10,706 bases of DNA from Candidatus Sumerlaeota bacterium (GTDB taxonomy: Bacteria; Sumerlaeota; Sumerlaeia; JAFGJS01), in NCBI GenBank assembly GCA_016928995.1, contig JAFGJS010000153.1:1-10706 (forward strand), in the 5' to 3' direction. Shown one piece after another: positions 1,728 through 10,402 of the stretch; position 1 is the first letter of the stretch, and the number at the start of each line of letters is the position of its first letter. Made by a program: the position numbers and the translations under genes. Below the pieces are notes generated by a model. The model ran no database searches, had not been told where the DNA came from, and saw only the letters and a program-made list of their open reading frames with translations.

Positions 1728-1777
1728 TGCGATACTGCAATGAACCATAGTGAGAAGACTGCGGTAGATATACGAAG

Positions 1778-1788
1778 AAAGGAACAGG
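1778..1788 (+). promoter_or_regulatory. Ribosome binding site that sets the start of the secreted polygalacturonase
   Basis: The sequence aaaggaacagg offers AAAGGA ten bases before, and AGG five bases before, the ATG at 1794. The alternative ATG at 1740 has no comparable purine-rich site. The 1794 start also places a basic N-terminus directly ahead of the hydrophobic signal segment. Confidence 0.65.
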
Positions 1789-1793
1789 ATGAC

Positions 1794-3167
1794 ATGAAAG
1801 CCAAAGAGGGAATCTTGAGGCCGACGCGGCTGTCGATGGTTTGCTGCATCATGCTGACTTCGAACATCAGCCATGCGATCAGCGAGGAGGAAGGCTGGAA
1901 GATGGCGGGCGAGATCCTCGAGCAGATTCAGCCGCCCACCTTCCCGGATCAGGATTACACGATCACCGACTTTGGCGCAAAAGGCAACGCCGACACCGAT
2001 TGCACGGAGGCATTGACATCAGCCATTCTAACTTGTCACGAAGCGGGGGGCGGCCGCGTTATCATCCCGGAAGGAACCTTTCTGACCGGCGCCATACACC
2101 TGAAAAGCAATGTGAACCTGCATCTGAGCGAAGGCGCGGTCATCAGTTTTTTCACCACCACCGACGACTATCTGCCCATGGTCTACACTCGCTTCGAAGG
2201 CGTCGAATGTATGAATTTCTCTCCGATGGTCTATGCCTTCGAGCAGGAAAACATCGCCATCACCGGGCAGGGCGTGCTCGACGGCAATGCGAGCATCACC
2301 AACTGGTGGCGCTGGAAGTGGCTTCAACGGGATGATGTCAAAGCCCTGTGCAAGATGGGTGACGATGGCGTGCCGGTGGAAAAGAGACTTTTCGGCGACG
2401 GTCATTATCTGCGTCCGAACATGATCCAGCCTTATCGGTGCAAAAATATTCTCATCGAAGGCGTCACGATCAAAAACAGCCCCATGTGGCATATCCATCC
2501 CGTGCTCAGTGAAAACATCACCGTGCGGAATGTCACGGTTGTCGGGCATGGCCCCAACAACGATGGCTGCAACCCGGAATCCTGTAAAAACGTGTTGATC
2601 GAGGGCTGCTATTTCAATACCGGCGACGACTGTATCGCCATCAAGTCCGGCCGCAACACGGACGGAAGACGAGTCAACGTGGCTTCAGAAAACATCATCG
2701 TCCGTGGCTGCGAGATGAAGGACGGTCACGGCGGCGTTGTCATGGGCAGCGAAATTTCCGGCGGCGCGCGCAACATCTTCGCCGAAGACTGCGTCATGGA
2801 CAGCCCGAACCTGGAGCGCGGTTTGCGCATTAAAACCAACTCCGTCCGTGGCGGCGTCATTGAGAATGTATTCATGCGCAATGTCGTCATGCGCGAGGTC
2901 AGGGAAGCGGCGCTGAGAATCAACTACCACTACCAGGAAGGCGACAAGGGCGACTTTCCGCCCACGGTCCGCAATGTGTATATGACGAACGTGCATTGCT
3001 ATAAAAGCAAGTACCCCTGGCACATTCGCGGCTACGAGCATAACAAGATCCAGCATGTTGTTTTGAAAGATTGCACTTTTGAAAACACGGAAGAGGAAGG
3101 ATTGGCCGAAGGGATTGAAGATTTTATCGTGCTGCCGAAGGAAACAGTTTCGACTGTTGAAGACTGA
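1794..3167 (+). CDS. Secreted polygalacturonase, glycoside hydrolase family 28
   Basis: A 457-residue protein that hydrolyses alpha-1,4 links in polygalacturonan, by family. Residues 1-28 form a signal peptide: basic start, hydrophobic LSMVCCIMLT core, SNISHA cleavage-like end. The mature part opens with the pectate-lyase-like N-terminal signature YTITDFGAKGNADTDCTEA (about 55-73), then a right-handed beta-helix with repeated NI-I-G-VT turns. GH28 active-site motifs are all present: NND (255-257), GDDCIAIKSG with the Asp pair at 278-279, GHG (311-313) and RIK (345-347). The family's usual NTD reads NND here, common in bacterial members, and the Asp is kept. Length fits bacterial GH28 enzymes. 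Whether it is endo- or exo-acting cannot be told from the sequence. It follows the glycosidase gene on the same strand after 241 bp that contain an inverted repeat, so joint transcription is possible but unproven. It converges on the minus-strand operon. Confidence 0.93.
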   Translation: MKAKEGILRPTRLSMVCCIMLTSNISHAISEEEGWKMAGEILEQIQPPTFPDQDYTITDFGAKGNADTDCTEALTSAILTCHEAGGGRVIIPEGTFLTGAIHLKSNVNLHLSEGAVISFFTTTDDYLPMVYTRFEGVECMNFSPMVYAFEQENIAITGQGVLDGNASITNWWRWKWLQRDDVKALCKMGDDGVPVEKRLFGDGHYLRPNMIQPYRCKNILIEGVTIKNSPMWHIHPVLSENITVRNVTVVGHGPNNDGCNPESCKNVLIEGCYFNTGDDCIAIKSGRNTDGRRVNVASENIIVRGCEMKDGHGGVVMGSEISGGARNIFAEDCVMDSPNLERGLRIKTNSVRGGVIENVFMRNVVMREVREAALRINYHYQEGDKGDFPPTVRNVYMTNVHCYKSKYPWHIRGYEHNKIQHVVLKDCTFENTEEEGLAEGIEDFIVLPKETVSTVED

Positions 3168-3199
3168 TTAAAAAGAAAACCACGACGATAAAATGATTG

Positions 3200-3289
3200 A
3201 CGCAAAGGCGCAGAGGCGCAAAGAACCGAATTTGTATTTATGGTAAATGCAATGATTGAAATCTTTATGCGCTCTGTGCCTCCGTGTGA
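3200..3289. repeat. Imperfect palindrome of the 'gcaaaggcgcagaggc' type
   Basis: The left arm acgcaaaggcgcagaggcgc (continuing aaag, to 3223) pairs imperfectly with the right arm at 3263-3289, whose reverse complement reads tcacacggaggcacagagcg then cataaag. The arms share the alternating ggc/cagag pattern with a few mismatches and two one-base gaps, separated by about 39 nt. Short repeats of this form are, from memory, scattered between genes in many environmental genomes. The function is unknown. Confidence 0.6.
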
Positions 3290-3418
3290 TTATTTCGGAT
3301 CGTCTAAAGTAGGCATGTCGCTATTTGTCTCATGAAATCAATAAAGCAGGTCTTCAATGCTTCCTTACTTGCTGAAAGACGGCATCCGGCGTATTCTTTT
3401 ATAGTCTCATAAATCGTT

Positions 3419-3438
3419 GTGCCGTCGTGCCGTCGTGG
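3419..3438. repeat. Short tandem repeat gtgccgtc x2 plus partial copy
   Basis: gtgccgtc occurs at 3419-3426 and 3427-3434 and is followed by gtgg, which begins a third, diverged copy. It overlaps the right arm of the 12-bp inverted repeat and lies immediately downstream, in the transcript direction, of the esterase pseudogene stop. Only two full copies are present. Confidence 0.55.
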
Positions 3439-3441
3439 TTT

Positions 3442-4450
3442 TTATGGTTGTCTCTTTTCCAGAAACTGCACGATGAACGCTCCTGTTTTTTCGAACCAGG
3501 GATCAAACAACCAGAACGAATGCGGGGCGTCCTCGAAGGTGTGGATCTCGCTATAAATGGAATACTCATCCAGTTTTTTGATTGTTTCGTCCCGGCCGGA
3601 TATTGCGCCTCCGGCGACAGCCTGTATTCGCCGGGATGCCAATGAATCCATGCCGCGCCAGGTAGTCCGCCAGCGGGTACATGAGGCTTCGATCGCCCGA
3701 ACTCCAACCGCCGCCATGAATTAAAATGACGGCAGGCCTGGGCGAGTCCGCATCCGTGGCTGTCGAAAAAAGATCCAACGAGAGCGGCCGCCCTTCCACG
3801 GAATGATAACAAACGCCGAACTGCGTCATGTTGCCGTTCCCGGCGTCGTACATGACCGCTTTGATGAACGGATGATATTTCCGGTGCTTCGCAAAGGCGC
3901 TTTGGAGCGTGTACGAAGTGTCGCGAGGTATGTTCTCGGATGTCATCTCCGGCAACATGAAAGACTTCAGCGTTTCGGTCACAGTGTACTTTTTCATTTC
4001 GTCATCCGACAGGATTTTAGCCCAGGGAACGCGTTGCGAGGTGTCCGAGCCAGGACCCGTGTTGCCGCCTTCCGCATAGAACACAGTTTTCTCCTTCTCC
4101 GGTGAATCCCAGTTGTGCCAGCCTTCGGGATGGATGTGCCCGTCCATTTCGCATTGCACAAAAACCGTCCTCGCATAGCTGCGCCACGGGCGCCCAAGGT
4201 AGACCTTTGTCACGCCCTCATCCGCCGTCAGTTTGCATTGGAGAAAAACAAAACCATAAGGCCGGCCTTCTGGCGTGCTCGCGGCCGTGATGGCCGGCAT
4301 GTCCGTTTCCGGATTGTCGCCTTTGGCGCCGGGCGCGCCTTCCGGCCAGAGCAATTCCCTTTGCGGTTCATCCGCGAAAACAACACAGAGCGACAGCAGT
4401 GCGATCCACAGTAGCAGTGCCGATACAGCGCCTTTTTCGAAAAAGTTCAT
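3442..4450 (-). pseudogene. Mosaic pectin esterase pseudogene (alpha/beta hydrolase start, pectin methylesterase tail, second esterase, frame breaks)
   Basis: The first frame opens at ATG 4448-4450 with a signal peptide (about 1-26, LLLWIALLSLCVVFA). Residues 32-54 (LLWPEGAPGAKGDNPETDMP) resemble the start of secreted alpha/beta hydrolases. At about residue 55 it turns into the C-terminal third of a pectin methylesterase (CE8): YGFVF-CKLTADEG, YLGRPWRSYARTVF (84-97) and PEGWHNW. The CE8 catalytic Asp regions are absent. From about 172 it becomes a BD-FAE-type esterase (SAFAKHRKYHPFIK, VILIHGGGWSSGDRSLMYPL). Near 3631-3640 the frame breaks: GEYRLSPEAQYPA continues in a second frame. Near 3592-3600 it passes to a third, ETIKKLDEYSIYSEIHTFED then APHSFWLFDPWF, ending at TAA 3442-3444. 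The nucleophile Gly-x-Ser-x-Gly region is missing, about 100 or more residues by family expectation. It lies 70 bp downstream of the second polygalacturonase in the operon. An unbroken 294-residue frame remains (3566-4450) but should not be an active esterase. Confidence 0.8.
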
Positions 4451-4520
4451 GCGTCAGCATATTGAAGTCCTTTCTGTCCGGTTGCAGTGCCTGCCCTGAT
4501 TGCTTTTCTTCGCAATGAAA

Positions 4521-6050
4521 TTAATAGGCAACGTTTTCGGATTGCGTGATCGTGTAAGCAGGTTTTTTACCATCGGTTGTCGTAATATTGGAGAACACGA
4601 TATCTTTGGCTCGATCGACCGTTATCGCGCTGCCTTCGGGCAGACTGATGTTTTCAAAAATGACATCGCGAGTCTGATGGCCTTCCGCCGGAAATCCGTT
4701 CACCTGGATCACCGGTTCCGAGGCGTTTCCCTTGGTCAGGTCGATGTTCTCAAAACGGAAGTTGCGGTAGTAGGGCTGTTCAGGAGCAGGCTCTCCATCG
4801 TTGTTATAGTATACGTCGCTGTAGATCGTGATCAATCGCAGGCCGCAGTCGCGCACGGTCACGTTTTCGACAAAGCCGCCGCGATCTTTGGTTCCCTTGA
4901 TCTGCAAGCCCCAGCGAAGGTTTCCCGCGACACAATCTTCAATCAGGACATTGCGCACCCCGCCGGACATCTCGCTGCCGATGGAGATGCCGCAGCCTTC
5001 AGTGAACCGGCAATCAAAAACCCGGACATTCTCCGTGGGACGGTTCACCACGTTGCCCTCGGGATTCTTGCCGGACTTAATGGCGATACAGTCATCAGAA
5101 GTGGTGAAAACGCAGTTGAAAATGAAAGAATTCCGGGAAGAGTCGGGATCAATACCGTCGCCATTATGCGCAACGCTTTTGAACGTGAGACCATGGCAGC
5201 TCACATTTTCCGAATAGATATAGTGGAGGGTCCAGCACGGCGTTTCTTCCAGCGTCAGACCTTGCACCTCAATGTTCTCGGCATTCATCAGGCAGATCAA
5301 ACGGCCACGTGAACGAAAGCCGTGGGCGTCCTGCATGGCGGCGCCCAGTTTTTGACCGCCGCCGGATATCGTTCCCTTGCCGCGTATGCTGATATTGCGC
5401 ACATTGGCAGGACCGGCGCTGTCAAGGGCGCCAGCGTTGAGCAGACTGGCGTAGGTTTCGAGCTCCCAACCTTCAAAACGGTTTCTGATGAAGGGCTCAT
5501 AGTCTTCAGGATCGGCGGATCCCTTTAGCACGCCTCCCTCGGCGATTTCCAGCGTCATGCCGCTCTTGAGGAATAGGGCGCCGCTGAGGAATACGCCTTC
5601 AGGAATGCGAATGACTCCTCCAGCCGGACAGGCGTCGATTGCGGCCTGGATGGCCCTGGTGTTAAGCGTTGTTCCATCACCCACGGCGCCGTGATCCAGA
5701 ATCGACACGACGGATTCTTTGGCCTTGGTGCGCACGGTCAGAGGATTGCCCGCCCGCACACTGTCTCCATCTTCCGGTTTGGCCAATACCGAGAAGACAT
5801 ACTCTGTGTCAGGCGAGAGGCCCTTGACTGTGAAGTGCGTCTTGGTTGTGACGCACACGGATTCGTCATCGGAGAGAATTATATAGGAAATACCAGGAAG
5901 CGCGAGCTCGGGTTTTTCCCAGAGCAAGGTGACCTCGTCAGAGCGAAGAGTCTGAGGCGCCAAGTCAAGCGGATTGGAATTACTCTCTTGAGTCGAATTG
6001 CCAGACAATTTTGCTATATTACCTCTTTCTATCATAATGGCATTGATCAA
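4521..6050 (-). CDS. GH28 polygalacturonase-like enzyme with N-terminal fibronectin-III-like domain, variant active site
   Basis: A 509-residue protein in the uxa operon. Residues about 28-110 resemble a fibronectin type III domain (VTLLWEKP, YIILSDDE, VKGLSPDTEYVFSVLA), as in exo-acting bacterial GH28 enzymes. The beta-helix begins at SILDHGAVGDGTTLNTRAIQ (116-135). Active-site motifs are NGDG (296-299) and SDDCIAIKSG with the Asp pair at 319-320. GCG (352-354) stands where most members have GHG, and QIK (383-385) where most have RIK. The three acidic residues are retained, so activity is plausible; the altered pair may mark a subfamily. No signal peptide is visible. The start is uncertain: TTG at 6048-6050 gives the longest frame, ATG at 6033-6035 is possible, and GAGGT lies 12 nt before a TTG at 6006-6008. 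The gene begins 13 nt after the uxaA stop, so it is probably co-transcribed. Inferred role: trimming imported oligogalacturonides to galacturonate in the cytoplasm, unless the start is misread. Confidence 0.88.
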   Translation of the reverse strand: MINAIMIERGNIAKLSGNSTQESNSNPLDLAPQTLRSDEVTLLWEKPELALPGISYIILSDDESVCVTTKTHFTVKGLSPDTEYVFSVLAKPEDGDSVRAGNPLTVRTKAKESVVSILDHGAVGDGTTLNTRAIQAAIDACPAGGVIRIPEGVFLSGALFLKSGMTLEIAEGGVLKGSADPEDYEPFIRNRFEGWELETYASLLNAGALDSAGPANVRNISIRGKGTISGGGQKLGAAMQDAHGFRSRGRLICLMNAENIEVQGLTLEETPCWTLHYIYSENVSCHGLTFKSVAHNGDGIDPDSSRNSFIFNCVFTTSDDCIAIKSGKNPEGNVVNRPTENVRVFDCRFTEGCGISIGSEMSGGVRNVLIEDCVAGNLRWGLQIKGTKDRGGFVENVTVRDCGLRLITIYSDVYYNNDGEPAPEQPYYRNFRFENIDLTKGNASEPVIQVNGFPAEGHQTRDVIFENISLPEGSAITVDRAKDIVFSNITTTDGKKPAYTITQSENVAY

Positions 6051-6063
6051 GCATAAATGATAT

Positions 6064-7539
6064 TCACAAAGTCACGCCCTGTTTCCAGATGGCGAAGTCG
6101 CGGTAGCCGCCCTTTTCATTACAGGTGCGTTCGCCGGAGGCGATAGCCAGCAAGAGCGTAAGAAGGCGATCCGCCAATGCGTCCATTGATTCATCCTCGA
6201 TTAATGCGCCGGCGTTGAAATCAATCCAGTTTTTCTTGCGCTCTGCCAATTGGCTGTTGGAGGAAATCTTGACCACAGGAATCGCTCCGCCCAGCGGCGT
6301 GCCGCGTCCCGTGGTAAAGAGCGCCATGTGGCATCCAGCCGCGGCCAGCGCCGTGACAGCCACAATATCGTTTCCCGGTCCTTCCAGCAGATTCAGCCCG
6401 TTTTGCCGGATGCGTTCGCCATATCGCAGCACGTCGGACAGCGGAGCGGTTCCGCCCTTCTGCACACATCCGAGCGATTTGTCTTCCAGCGTGGTGATGC
6501 CTCCGGCCTTGTTGCCGGGCGATGGATTTTCGCCGACCGGTTCGCCGTGACTCAGAAAATATTCCTTGAAGCCGTTCACGACGGAGGCCGCCTTTTCGAA
6601 AACCTCCCGGCTTTCGCACCGGTTGAGCAAGATCGTCTCCGCGCCAAACGCTTCGGGTATCTCCGTCAGCGCCGTCGTCGCATGGCGCGCAATCAGCCGG
6701 TCTGACACGGCGCCGGCAAGCGGATTGGCGGTCAATCCGGAAAAAGCATCCGATCCACCGCACTTCAATCCGACTCTTAAGCGGGAAATCGAAACTGGCT
6801 CGCGCTTGTCGTTCGCGGCAACATCACGAAGCTCCCGCAGCAATGTCTTGCAGGCTTCCTCTTCGTCCTCTTCATCCTGCGCGATAAGAAACCGTACCCG
6901 GCGCGGATCGACCGGACCGATGCATTCCTTGAAGGCGTCCATCGTGTTGTTCTCACAACCAAGGCCGATCACGAGCACGCCGCCTGCGTTCGGATGCCGC
7001 GTCAGGTCAGCCAGGATAGTGCGCGACATTGCATGATCGTCGCCCAGCTGGGAGCATCCATACGGATGAGCAAACACCGCAATGCCGTCGATGTTTTCCG
7101 GCAGTCCTTCCGCCCGGAGCTCCGCCGCCGTTTTTTCCGCCAGACCATTGACGCATCCGACCGTTGGAATGATCCACAGTTCATTGCGAATGCCGGCATC
7201 GCCGTTGGCGCGAGGGTAGCCCATGAACGTAAGGCCGTCATCGATTTTTTTCAGCGGCCGCATGTCGGGCTGGTATGTATATTCCAGCGCGCCCGAAAGC
7301 GCGGTCTTCACATTGTGGTTGTGCACCCAGTCTCCCGGATTGATGTCTTTGCTGGCGACGCCGATTGGATAGCCGTACTTGACGACCGGTTCTCCGGAAC
7401 GAATCGCCTTGAGCGCAAACTTGTGGCCGGCCGGAATCGTTGCGGAAATCACAACATTGTCCGTCTCGATGCCTGCGGCGAGTTCGCGCAATGCGACCGC
7501 CACGTTATCCGCGCTATGTATTGTTAAAGTCGATTTCAT
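6064..7539 (-). CDS. uxaA: Altronate dehydratase (altronate hydrolase)
   Basis: Converts D-altronate to 2-keto-3-deoxy-D-gluconate in the cytoplasm, the third step of galacturonate breakdown. The 491 residues match the family length (about 495 in E. coli). An N-terminal SAF-type domain covers about 1-90, with AGHKFALKAI (37-46) and GDWVHNHNVKTALSG (69-83). The large dehydratase domain follows, with FMGYPRANGDAGIRNELWIIP (105-125), PTVGCVN (Cys129), FAHPYGCSQLGDDH (Cys162), GLGCENN (Cys195) and GLKCGGSDAFSGLTANPLAG (Cys260). The conserved cysteines fit an iron-dependent enzyme. I chose ATG 7537-7539 because it overlaps the uxaB stop as ATGA and begins MKSTLTIHSADNV, as expected for UxaA. A longer in-frame reading to 7710 lies inside uxaB and is rejected. 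A weak AAGG lies seven bases upstream, so translation is probably coupled to uxaB. Confidence 0.95.
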   Translation of the reverse strand: MKSTLTIHSADNVAVALRELAAGIETDNVVISATIPAGHKFALKAIRSGEPVVKYGYPIGVASKDINPGDWVHNHNVKTALSGALEYTYQPDMRPLKKIDDGLTFMGYPRANGDAGIRNELWIIPTVGCVNGLAEKTAAELRAEGLPENIDGIAVFAHPYGCSQLGDDHAMSRTILADLTRHPNAGGVLVIGLGCENNTMDAFKECIGPVDPRRVRFLIAQDEEDEEEACKTLLRELRDVAANDKREPVSISRLRVGLKCGGSDAFSGLTANPLAGAVSDRLIARHATTALTEIPEAFGAETILLNRCESREVFEKAASVVNGFKEYFLSHGEPVGENPSPGNKAGGITTLEDKSLGCVQKGGTAPLSDVLRYGERIRQNGLNLLEGPGNDIVAVTALAAAGCHMALFTTGRGTPLGGAIPVVKISSNSQLAERKKNWIDFNAGALIEDESMDALADRLLTLLLAIASGERTCNEKGGYRDFAIWKQGVTL

Positions 7540-8975
7540 GACTGAACCTTGAATTGCTGAACTGCCTCGCGCGTTCCTTTGTCGATCATCAATCCCAGCG
7601 CTTTGGACACCGCAGGCTCGAACTCCGGCAATTGAGTCAGATCCTCTCCCCAAGACTCCGCATGACTCAATACGCGATTGGTCACGCCGGCGACATCGTC
7701 CGACATCCATGCCTCTGCAAAGAAACGCATCACCTTTTCATCATCGTTCACAACGTATCCTTCGCGAAGGTCGCCTTTGTAGAAGGCGATCAGCGCCGCC
7801 AGGGAAAACGCAAGCCTTTCCGGCGCATGGCCGAAAGCTTCGATGTAATTCTTAACCGTGGGCAGCACGCGCGTCTTCCACTTTGAAACGGAATTCAGGC
7901 TGATCGACAACAGCTCGTGACGGATAAACGGATTCAGAAAACGCTCCATGACCGCGTTGGCGAAGGATTCCGCGGCGGAACGATCCATCCGCAACACAGG
8001 AACGATCTCCTCGAACACCGTGCTTCTGACAAACGGACCGAAATCCGGGTCTTCCATCATTTCCCGCACAGTGTCCACTCCTCCCAGAAAAGCCGCCAGC
8101 ACGCTCGACGTATGCGCTCCGTTCAGCACGCCGACCTTGCGAGTGCGGTATGGCTGCATATCGTCGCACCAGATCACGTTAAGGCCGGCTTTGTGGAACG
8201 GCAGTTCGGCTTTCAACGGCTCCGGCCCTTCGATGACCAGCAGATGAAAGATTTCTCCGGCGCAGATCAGCTTGTCTTCATAGCCCAGTTCAGCCGTCAT
8301 GGAAGCGGCTTCATCGTGCGGATAACCGGGCACAATCCGGTCCACCAATGTGTTGAGAAATGTACAGTGATGATCGATCCAGCTAGCGAATCCTGCTTCC
8401 AGTTTCCAGTCATTGGCATGATGCAAAATACATTCCCTGAGCAGTGCGCCGTTATGATTGATCAACTCGCACGGCATGATGACCATTCCTGATTCCGGGG
8501 CGCCGCTAAAAGACAAATAACGCTCCCACAACCATGCCGCCAGTTTGGCCGGAAACGAAACTGCCGCGGAATCGAGCGGCCATTTTTCCGGGACGTATTC
8601 GATGCCGGCCTCGGTCGTATTGGAAACCACAAAGCGCATCGTCGGATTGCGGGCAGTCTCCAGGTAGGCGTCCCAGTCGCGATAGGGATTGATCCCGCGG
8701 CTGATCGAAGTGACGACTTCATGCGTATTCACCATATCGCCGTTCTCGATGCCGCGCAGGTACAGCGTATACAGCGAATCCTGATCATTCAACAAATCGA
8801 CTATTCCGTTTTCAATCGGCTGAACCACGACAGCCTTTCCATTGAACTCGCCAATTGCATTCATGCGATGCAGCATCCAGTCGATAAACGCGCGCAGAAA
8901 ATTGCCCTCGCCAAATTGCAGAACTCGTTCCGGCGCCTCTGCTGTCGGGATGATTTTTTTTGTTAAAAGCTTCAT
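7536..8975 (-). CDS. uxaB: Tagaturonate reductase (altronate oxidoreductase)
   Basis: NAD(H)-linked reduction of D-tagaturonate to D-altronate, second step of galacturonate breakdown, cytoplasmic. The 479 residues compare with 483 in E. coli UxaB. The N-terminal Rossmann signature RVLQFGEGNFLRAFIDWML (17-35) and VVSNTTEAGI (116-125) bind the cofactor. IMPCELINHNG (166-176) is typical of the mannitol dehydrogenase family. The catalytic Lys-Asn-His triad is seen in RKVGVLNGAHTS, as Lys280, Asn285 and His288. The PCELI segment and overall length favour UxaB over the fructuronate reductase UxuB, as does the company of uxaA and uxaC. The ATG overlaps the uxaC stop (ATGA) and has AAGGAAG just upstream. 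No breaks or missing residues were noticed. Confidence 0.95.
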   Translation of the reverse strand: MKLLTKKIIPTAEAPERVLQFGEGNFLRAFIDWMLHRMNAIGEFNGKAVVVQPIENGIVDLLNDQDSLYTLYLRGIENGDMVNTHEVVTSISRGINPYRDWDAYLETARNPTMRFVVSNTTEAGIEYVPEKWPLDSAAVSFPAKLAAWLWERYLSFSGAPESGMVIMPCELINHNGALLRECILHHANDWKLEAGFASWIDHHCTFLNTLVDRIVPGYPHDEAASMTAELGYEDKLICAGEIFHLLVIEGPEPLKAELPFHKAGLNVIWCDDMQPYRTRKVGVLNGAHTSSVLAAFLGGVDTVREMMEDPDFGPFVRSTVFEEIVPVLRMDRSAAESFANAVMERFLNPFIRHELLSISLNSVSKWKTRVLPTVKNYIEAFGHAPERLAFSLAALIAFYKGDLREGYVVNDDEKVMRFFAEAWMSDDVAGVTNRVLSHAESWGEDLTQLPEFEPAVSKALGLMIDKGTREAVQQFKVQS

Positions 8976-10393
8976 GCACTTCCTTCTTTCAGTTCAATCC
9001 CGAAGTATTCAACAGCATTGTTGTAAGAGATGTTTTCAACCATCTGACCCAGCAAATCCATATCCGCCGGAATTTCACCGTTTTCCACATCGGCGCCAAT
9101 CAGGTTGCAGAGAATGCGCCGGAAATACTCGTGGCGCGGATACGACAGGAAACTGCGAGAATCGGTCAACATGCCGATAAAACGGCTGAGCAGTCCGACG
9201 ACGGACAGCGCATCGAGCTGCTTTTGGATGCCGTCTTTCTGGTCGAGAAACCACCAGCTCGATCCGAACTGCATCTTGCCCGGACAGGAGCCATCCTGAT
9301 AGTTGCCGATCATCGTCGCCATCAGCGCATTATCGGCTGGATTGAGATTGTATAAAATCGTCTTCGCCAGTTGGTTCGAACTGTCGAGCCGGTCAAGCAG
9401 TTTGACGAGACCGGGGCCTTGCCGAAAGTCGCCGATTGAATCAAAGCCGATGTCCGGGCCGAGTTTCTGAAACATGCGTCTGTTGTTGTCGCGGAATGCG
9501 CCGACATGGAACTGCTGCGCCCAGCCGCGGTTGTGATTCATTTTGCCCATTTCATATAGAAAAGCGAAAAGAAACGCATCGGCCTCCTGCTGCGAAACGC
9601 GCTTCCCATGCATCACAGTTTGAAAAATACGGTTTAGCTCGGCTCCCGGCGCTTCCACGTCAGGGATGTAATTCAAGCCATGATCGGAAATCCGGCAACC
9701 GGCGGCATGAAAATAGGCATGGCGCTTGTCGATGGCTTCCACTAACGATTCAAAACTGTTGATGGCCACGCCGGACACCTCCGCCAGGTGCTCCACATAG
9801 TTTTGATACGCCGCCGGATCGGACAGATTGGCCGCCTTGTCGGGCCTGAAGGCCGGCAGCACCTTGATCTCGAAACCTTCGGAGGCCAGCTGCCGGTGGT
9901 ATTCCAGCGAATCGACCGGATCGTCCGTTGTGCAAACCAGCCTGACGTTCATTTTACGCATCAGGTTCCGCGCCGAATATTCGGGTGTGCGCAGTTTGGC
10001 GGTGCAATCCTCATAGAACTCTTCCGCCGTAGCCGGACTCAGCAGCGTATCGATGCTGAAATAGCGTTGCAGTTCCAGATGCGTCCAGTGATAGAGCGGA
10101 TTCCGGATCGTCTGCGGCACGGTTTCGGCCCACTTCTGGAACTTGTCGCGCCAGGGCTTGCCGCCGGAGCAGAACTCTTCACTCACTCCGTTGGTGCGCA
10201 TCGCACGCCACTTGTAATGATCGCCGCCCAGCCAGACCTCGCCGAGATTGTCATATCGCTTGTCCTCGGCCACTTCTTGCGGCGACAGGTGACAGTGATA
10301 ATCATAAATCGGCATCTTCGCCGCATGCTCATGATACAGCTTTTTCGCAATTTCGTTCTGCAATAGGAAATTTTCATCCAAAAATTTTTTCAC
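8972..10393 (-). CDS. uxaC: Uronate isomerase (glucuronate/galacturonate isomerase)
   Basis: Isomerises D-galacturonate to D-tagaturonate, and D-glucuronate to D-fructuronate, as first step of hexuronate catabolism. It belongs to the amidohydrolase-fold uronate isomerases. With GTG at 10391-10393 as start it has 473 residues (E. coli 470) and begins MKKFLDENFLLQNEIAKKLY, the usual family opening. The metal-binding HxH falls at His33 and His35 (YDYHCHLSP), agreeing with E. coli numbering. Other landmarks are YHWTHLELQRYFSI (101-114), CTTDDPVDSLEYH (154-166), HVGAFRDNNRRMF (296-308) and TDSRSFLSYPRHEYFRR (410-426), with the active-site Asp411 and Arg413. A TTG two codons earlier (10397-10399) is possible but too close to the ribosome binding site. 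It is the first complete gene of the operon seen here and its stop overlaps uxaB. Confidence 0.96.
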   Translation of the reverse strand: MKKFLDENFLLQNEIAKKLYHEHAAKMPIYDYHCHLSPQEVAEDKRYDNLGEVWLGGDHYKWRAMRTNGVSEEFCSGGKPWRDKFQKWAETVPQTIRNPLYHWTHLELQRYFSIDTLLSPATAEEFYEDCTAKLRTPEYSARNLMRKMNVRLVCTTDDPVDSLEYHRQLASEGFEIKVLPAFRPDKAANLSDPAAYQNYVEHLAEVSGVAINSFESLVEAIDKRHAYFHAAGCRISDHGLNYIPDVEAPGAELNRIFQTVMHGKRVSQQEADAFLFAFLYEMGKMNHNRGWAQQFHVGAFRDNNRRMFQKLGPDIGFDSIGDFRQGPGLVKLLDRLDSSNQLAKTILYNLNPADNALMATMIGNYQDGSCPGKMQFGSSWWFLDQKDGIQKQLDALSVVGLLSRFIGMLTDSRSFLSYPRHEYFRRILCNLIGADVENGEIPADMDLLGQMVENISYNNAVEYFGIELKEGSA

Positions 10394-10402
10394 GATCAAG
10401 TT

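Follow-up and report, generated by a model that had tools for sequence, protein, structure and literature searches.

A very probable pseudogene of a two-domain pectin methylesterase–esterase at a bacterial galacturonate locus

In this study, we found that the minus strand of the window (the whole 10,706-bp stretch analysed, which is an entire contig of a 4.55-Mb, 161-contig, 92.5% complete metagenome-assembled genome) carries from 4450 to 3442 what is in all likelihood the recently decayed gene of a secreted two-domain enzyme, a CE8 pectin methylesterase joined to a BD-FAE-type esterase, a gene that has acquired its 5' end from a different esterase gene. This relic would be an ordinary pseudogene and an ordinary case of recent bacterial gene loss. 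Judged from the sequence, only its N-terminal join would be a true chimera, and the contributing genes would be two, not three.

The locus and the frames of the relic

The window is a pectin/galacturonate locus. On the minus strand, the following genes precede the relic, which takes the last place.

8972-10399, minus strand: uxaC (Pfam UxaC)
7536-8975, minus strand: uxaB, mannitol-dehydrogenase-type (Pfam Mannitol_dh)
6064-7539, minus strand: uxaA altronate dehydratase (Pfam GD_AH)
4521-6020, minus strand: intact GH28 polygalacturonase with an N-terminal FN3 domain (Pfam GH28 E 5e-29, fn3 E 2.7e-7)

The plus strand carries a second GH28 gene and a GH65-like gene. The minus-strand GH28 with FN3 (4521-6050 region) lies directly behind uxaA and has no obvious signal peptide; as there is no room for one, it is probably an intracellular exo-polygalacturonase. 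The plus-strand GH28 (1740-3167) seems to have a signal peptide.

Several repeats were also observed. Just downstream of the relic, at 3188-3296, there is an interspersed repeat of ~100 bp (CGCAAAGGCGCAGAGGCGCAAAG ... GCGCTCTGTGCCTCCGTGTGA), palindromic by eye and MITE/REP-like; elsewhere in the genome it has many short copies and about 15 longer ones (~70-86% identity). A short repeat, GTGCCGTCGTGCCGTCGTGG, directly follows the relic stop (3411-3442), has near copies at contigs C68, C19, C6 and C15, and lies in a region that pairs with 3181-3198 as an inverted repeat (78%). Nested inverted repeats of the GATCGGTATCGGGATCGCT type (89% complementary, 18 nt) occupy 1653-1733, in the gap that separates the GH65-like gene from the first GH28.

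The relic consists of the parts below. Here, L039 and L046 belong to the CE8-esterase relatives, taken from 31 related loci in a scan of genome contigs, and L071, L072 and L074 are alpha/beta hydrolases.

4289-4450, minus strand: part 1, residues 1-54, comprising the signal peptide and the N-terminal stretch of an alpha/beta hydrolase of the LLWP-GAPG type (EstA); L071 and L072 are 56-58% identical here at their N-termini, and L074 also matches
4286-4298, minus strand: join 1, in-frame EstA/CE8 junction at CCGGCCATCACGGCC (PAIT/AAST), from comparison with EstA and CE8 relatives
3978-4294, minus strand: part 2, residues ~53-158, the final third of the CE8 pectinesterase domain; PF01095 positions 177-295, E 3.3e-28; 68% identity to L039
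3634-3977, minus strand: part 3a, linker and BD-FAE-type esterase front (DTSYTLQSAF...HGGGWSSGD...HGFIGIP); 59.5% identity to L039, linker included
3629-3637 (nt ~3631), minus strand: lesion, one base lost in the V codon before EYRLSPE, frame a to frame b, from codon comparison with L039 and L046
3594-3629, minus strand: part 3b, EYRLSPEAQYPA, second frame; matches VEYRLSPEARYPA of L039 and L046
3593-3602, minus strand: join 2, ~400-nt frame-shifting deletion at TATCCGGCCGGGAC, nucleophile elbow missing, from comparison with L039 residues 447-579
3442-3600, minus strand: part 3c, C-terminal end of the esterase in the third frame, running to the stop and carrying the catalytic-His motif PHSFWLFDPWF; 71-73% identity to L039 575-627, E 2e-18

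Inspection of the open reading frames gave a single 294-codon frame (4450..3566) that runs from a signal peptide and an alpha/beta hydrolase N-terminus through the CE8 last third into the esterase front, as the first-pass annotation had described with coordinates correct to within a few bases. Pfam and the homologues agree with this composition, and the CE8, esterase and hydrolase segments, aligned separately, each matched its own family. Relic residues 53-161 correspond to positions 177-295 of 298 in Pectinesterase PF01095 (E 3.3e-28, which passes the curated cut-off). The BD-FAE profile PF20434 gives a weak match between its first 33 positions and residues 225-258 (E 0.0011, under the curated cut-off). 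Past HGFIGIP, the coding signal shifts to a second frame (EYRLSPEAQYPA) and then to a third (GRDETIKKLDEYSIYSEIHTFEDAPHSFWLFDPWFEKTG...) up to the stop at 3442, and GRDETIKKLDEYSIYSEIHTFEDAPHSFWLFDPWF in this last frame aligns to the esterase C-terminus with 71% identity (E 2e-18). Two lesions, the loss of one base near nt 3631 and a deletion of ~400 nt at ~3602-3594, carry the esterase through these two further frames. That it passes through them without its nucleophile region had been proposed before, and the comparison with L039, in which GCSAGA is present, bears this out.

The third-position GC of the EstA and CE8 parts was 0.65, within the range of the neighbouring genes (0.63-0.71), and therefore gave no sign of a foreign or chimeric piece. 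The best Shine-Dalgarno-like sequence at 4450-4475, AAAGGA, lies nearer to an out-of-frame ATG (~nt 4460) than to the relic ATG at 4450, which may be a further small lesion at the 5' end.

Intact relatives of the two-domain ancestor

The closest model for the ancestor is L039 (JAGQPD010000861.1, Planctomycetales MAG HKST-UBA31), an uninterrupted frame of 630 codons (626 aa from Met) with a signal peptide, a full CE8 domain (PF01095 E 7.8e-75), a linker and a full BD-FAE-type esterase (E 8e-40). L040 of Echinicola shivajiensis has the same two-domain order in a 640-codon frame and is 46% identical to L039; both are intact with all catalytic motifs present. The linker is also homologous, reading LKPFPLPAMQ...IPKDPSYTL in L039 and LKSFMLPEM...IPRDTSYTL in the relic. 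As L039 and L040 are intact fusions and the L039 linker is homologous, the CE8-esterase join is ancestral and belongs to a natural two-domain protein. The relic shares with this protein the order of CE8 C-terminal third, linker, esterase front and esterase C-terminus. It is missing residues 1-208 of CE8 and ~132 residues of the esterase, and it differs further in its foreign N-terminus and its frame changes. The three-part mosaic of the first-pass annotation was thus not upheld, since its join at residue 172 is the domain boundary of a natural fusion and not a break; the natural architecture, later truncated, which had been offered there as the alternative, is what we found.

This architecture was found only in L039 itself among 297 genomes of the class of that organism; it is therefore rare and may have moved horizontally. 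In a Tangfeifania MAG (L041, 4716-8165), the same esterase family was observed at the C-terminal end of a protein of 1150 aa, whose N-terminal domains are large and enzyme-like; a CE8 gene adjoins it. This BD-FAE-type esterase family seems to have been fused to pectin-related enzymes more than once. A literature search found no report of the CE8-esterase fusion or of this pseudogene. BD-FAE is a bifunctional feruloyl/acetyl xylan esterase (PMC8165983); the ancestral second domain belongs to the same Pfam family, PF20434, whereas the relic, as far as its motifs predict, could not be active.

Lost motifs, joins and the N-terminal donor

Comparison with L039 revealed that the loss of CE8 residues 1-208 (L039 frame numbering) removed GQAV (139-142), QDT (162-164) and the DFxFG motif DFVFG (186-190), leaving LGRPW (240-244) as the only CE8 catalytic motif. 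These motifs are conserved in plant and bacterial pectinesterases of solved structure (1xg2, 1gq8 and others), as an alignment showed. In CE8 enzymes, catalysis depends on an Asp pair and a Gln (QDT, DFxFG, GQAV) and on the Arg of LGRPW. Neither a complete beta-helix domain (full-length PF01095) nor a full set of catalytic residues is left, and membership in the CE8 family as a pseudogene fragment follows from the homology of the surviving stretch. The esterase is similarly disabled, with HGGGW and PHSFW in different frames and GxSxG deleted. Frame changes and deletions, set against the intact L039 and L040, mark the relic as a very probable pseudogene.

The N-terminal part has a different origin. 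Relic residues ~28-57 align with the N-terminal end of intact alpha/beta hydrolases from two genomes that belong to the same class (per-genome E 6.6e-4 and 1.0e-3; 56-58% identity). Residues ~1-54 comprise a signal peptide and then DEPQRELLWPEGAPGAKGDNPETDMPAIT, for which the counterpart in L071 is PPVVLLWPDGAPGAVGNEDKDKPTLT/IFAPP, and L072 and L074 are similar. With these LLWP-GAPG-type hydrolases (L071, L072, L074; Pfam BD-FAE/Abhydrolase_3), the relic has in common the signal peptide and the first ~30 mature residues to P-x-[IL]-T, while everything past that Thr, including the whole catalytic core, is present in the intact ~320-aa L071 and L072 and absent from the relic.

At join 1 (nt ~4294-4289), the frame is kept from the EstA codons, which end in P-A-I-T, into the CE8 codons, which begin with I-T-A-A-S-T-P; across this point, EstA relatives read P-T-L-T-I-F-A-P-P and CE8 relatives S-Y-I-T-A-A-S-T-P. 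The two sides share ATCACG, a stretch of 6 bp that could reach 8 bp given the flanking codons; as both families carry [IL]-T there, this fits a short-homology deletion. At join 2 (nt ~3602-3594), ~132 residues are missing relative to L039 (396 nt; ~400 nt with the frame change), including the nucleophile elbow GCSAGA, and up to 7 bp of TATCCGGCCGGGAC, CCGGCCG, could come from either parent. Both joins would be consistent with microhomology, and these breakpoints and shared stretches were deduced from amino-acid conservation in distant relatives.

The earlier proposal of an in-frame fusion at a shared Ile-Thr agrees with these data. The donor gene may have been adjacent, as also proposed, but no relative with that order was found. 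No close EstA match stood beside the CE8-esterase genes of L039-L069; for six of these genomes, a separate search located the EstA copies. In the genome of the relic, the donor EstA was not found; the nearest paralogue, C62 (48% identity), has no LWP N-terminus.

We suppose that the ancestor was a secreted protein with a CE8 pectin methylesterase and a BD-FAE-type carbohydrate esterase, and that its gene would have stood at the end of, or next to, the uxaC-uxaB-uxaA-GH28 galacturonate operon. The first 54 EstA codons may then have been joined in frame to CE8-esterase codon ~209 at a shared Ile-Thr-coding segment, either by an illegitimate deletion or by another recombination at short homology, and a one-base loss and a second deletion of ~400 nt would have taken out the esterase nucleophile region. 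We infer the order of these events, the donor gene as a neighbour, the deletion mechanism and the correctness of the assembly here.

Alternatives, age of the decay and meaning

The main rival to the pseudogene is an assembly or sequencing error, in which the organism has an intact gene whose pieces were wrongly joined in the contig. The short 10.7-kb contig of a 161-contig MAG of 92% completeness speaks for it, but three separate errors within 0.7 kb would be required, and the inferred shared stretches of 6-8 bp are far below assembler overlap lengths. Moreover, a search with the whole L039 protein did not find the missing CE8 front or esterase middle elsewhere in the genome, and the rest of EstA was likewise not found there. 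We therefore consider an assembly error unlikely.

Against decay as such, it counts that no stop interrupts the 294-aa frame, that this frame starts with a plausible signal peptide, and that unaltered near-invariant residues are also expected from residual selection. The fusion could be expressed and used as a short secreted protein, for example a pectin-binding beta-helix fragment, with its signal peptide in frame and conserved residues intact in the surviving parts. However, what remains of CE8 is the final third of a right-handed beta-helix, which lacks the coils before it, the esterase part ends before its core is complete, and out-of-frame remains of the same gene come directly after the frame. 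The EstA-CE8-esterase architecture was also not found in an intact relative among the 31 related loci or the 38 other genomes of the class. We regard this function as improbable.

It is no more probable that CE8 and esterase, too, started as two genes and became fused through a deletion in the course of the decay. They are indeed separate adjacent genes in L053 and L056, but L039 has the same in-frame fusion with its homologous linker and L040 is fused too. Least probable, and very doubtful, is that the 294-aa fusion is a newly born secreted non-catalytic pectin-binding protein, which combines one esterase's signal peptide with the pectin-facing end of a second.

The decay of the two-domain gene appears to be recent. 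In the surviving stretches, 12 of 12 near-invariant CE8 residues (27 homologues) and 28 of 28 of the esterase (21 homologues) are kept; with all 40 unchanged, the decay is recent, or the pieces were constrained until recently. This agrees with the recent loss proposed at first. The orthologous locus that might have preserved the separate genes was not found among the 38 other genomes of the class, and a search by way of the neighbouring GH28 gave in this class a single 41% match, covering query residues 103-413. In a profile search, the relic was the sole PF01095 match in the 92.5%-complete genome. As no other CE8 was found, a loss of the pectin methyl-esterase capacity is supported, in line with the loss of pectin de-esterification suggested earlier.

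Taken together, this locus gives a clean snapshot of an eroding carbohydrate-use locus, with an intact intracellular galacturonate pathway and the only recognisable pectin methylesterase gene freshly dead. It is also a warning for annotation, as the 294-aa frame would be called a pectinesterase, though by its predicted motifs it could not be one. Beyond these two lessons, the finding is ordinary. It suggests that the organism now lives on de-esterified pectin or on oligogalacturonides released by others.
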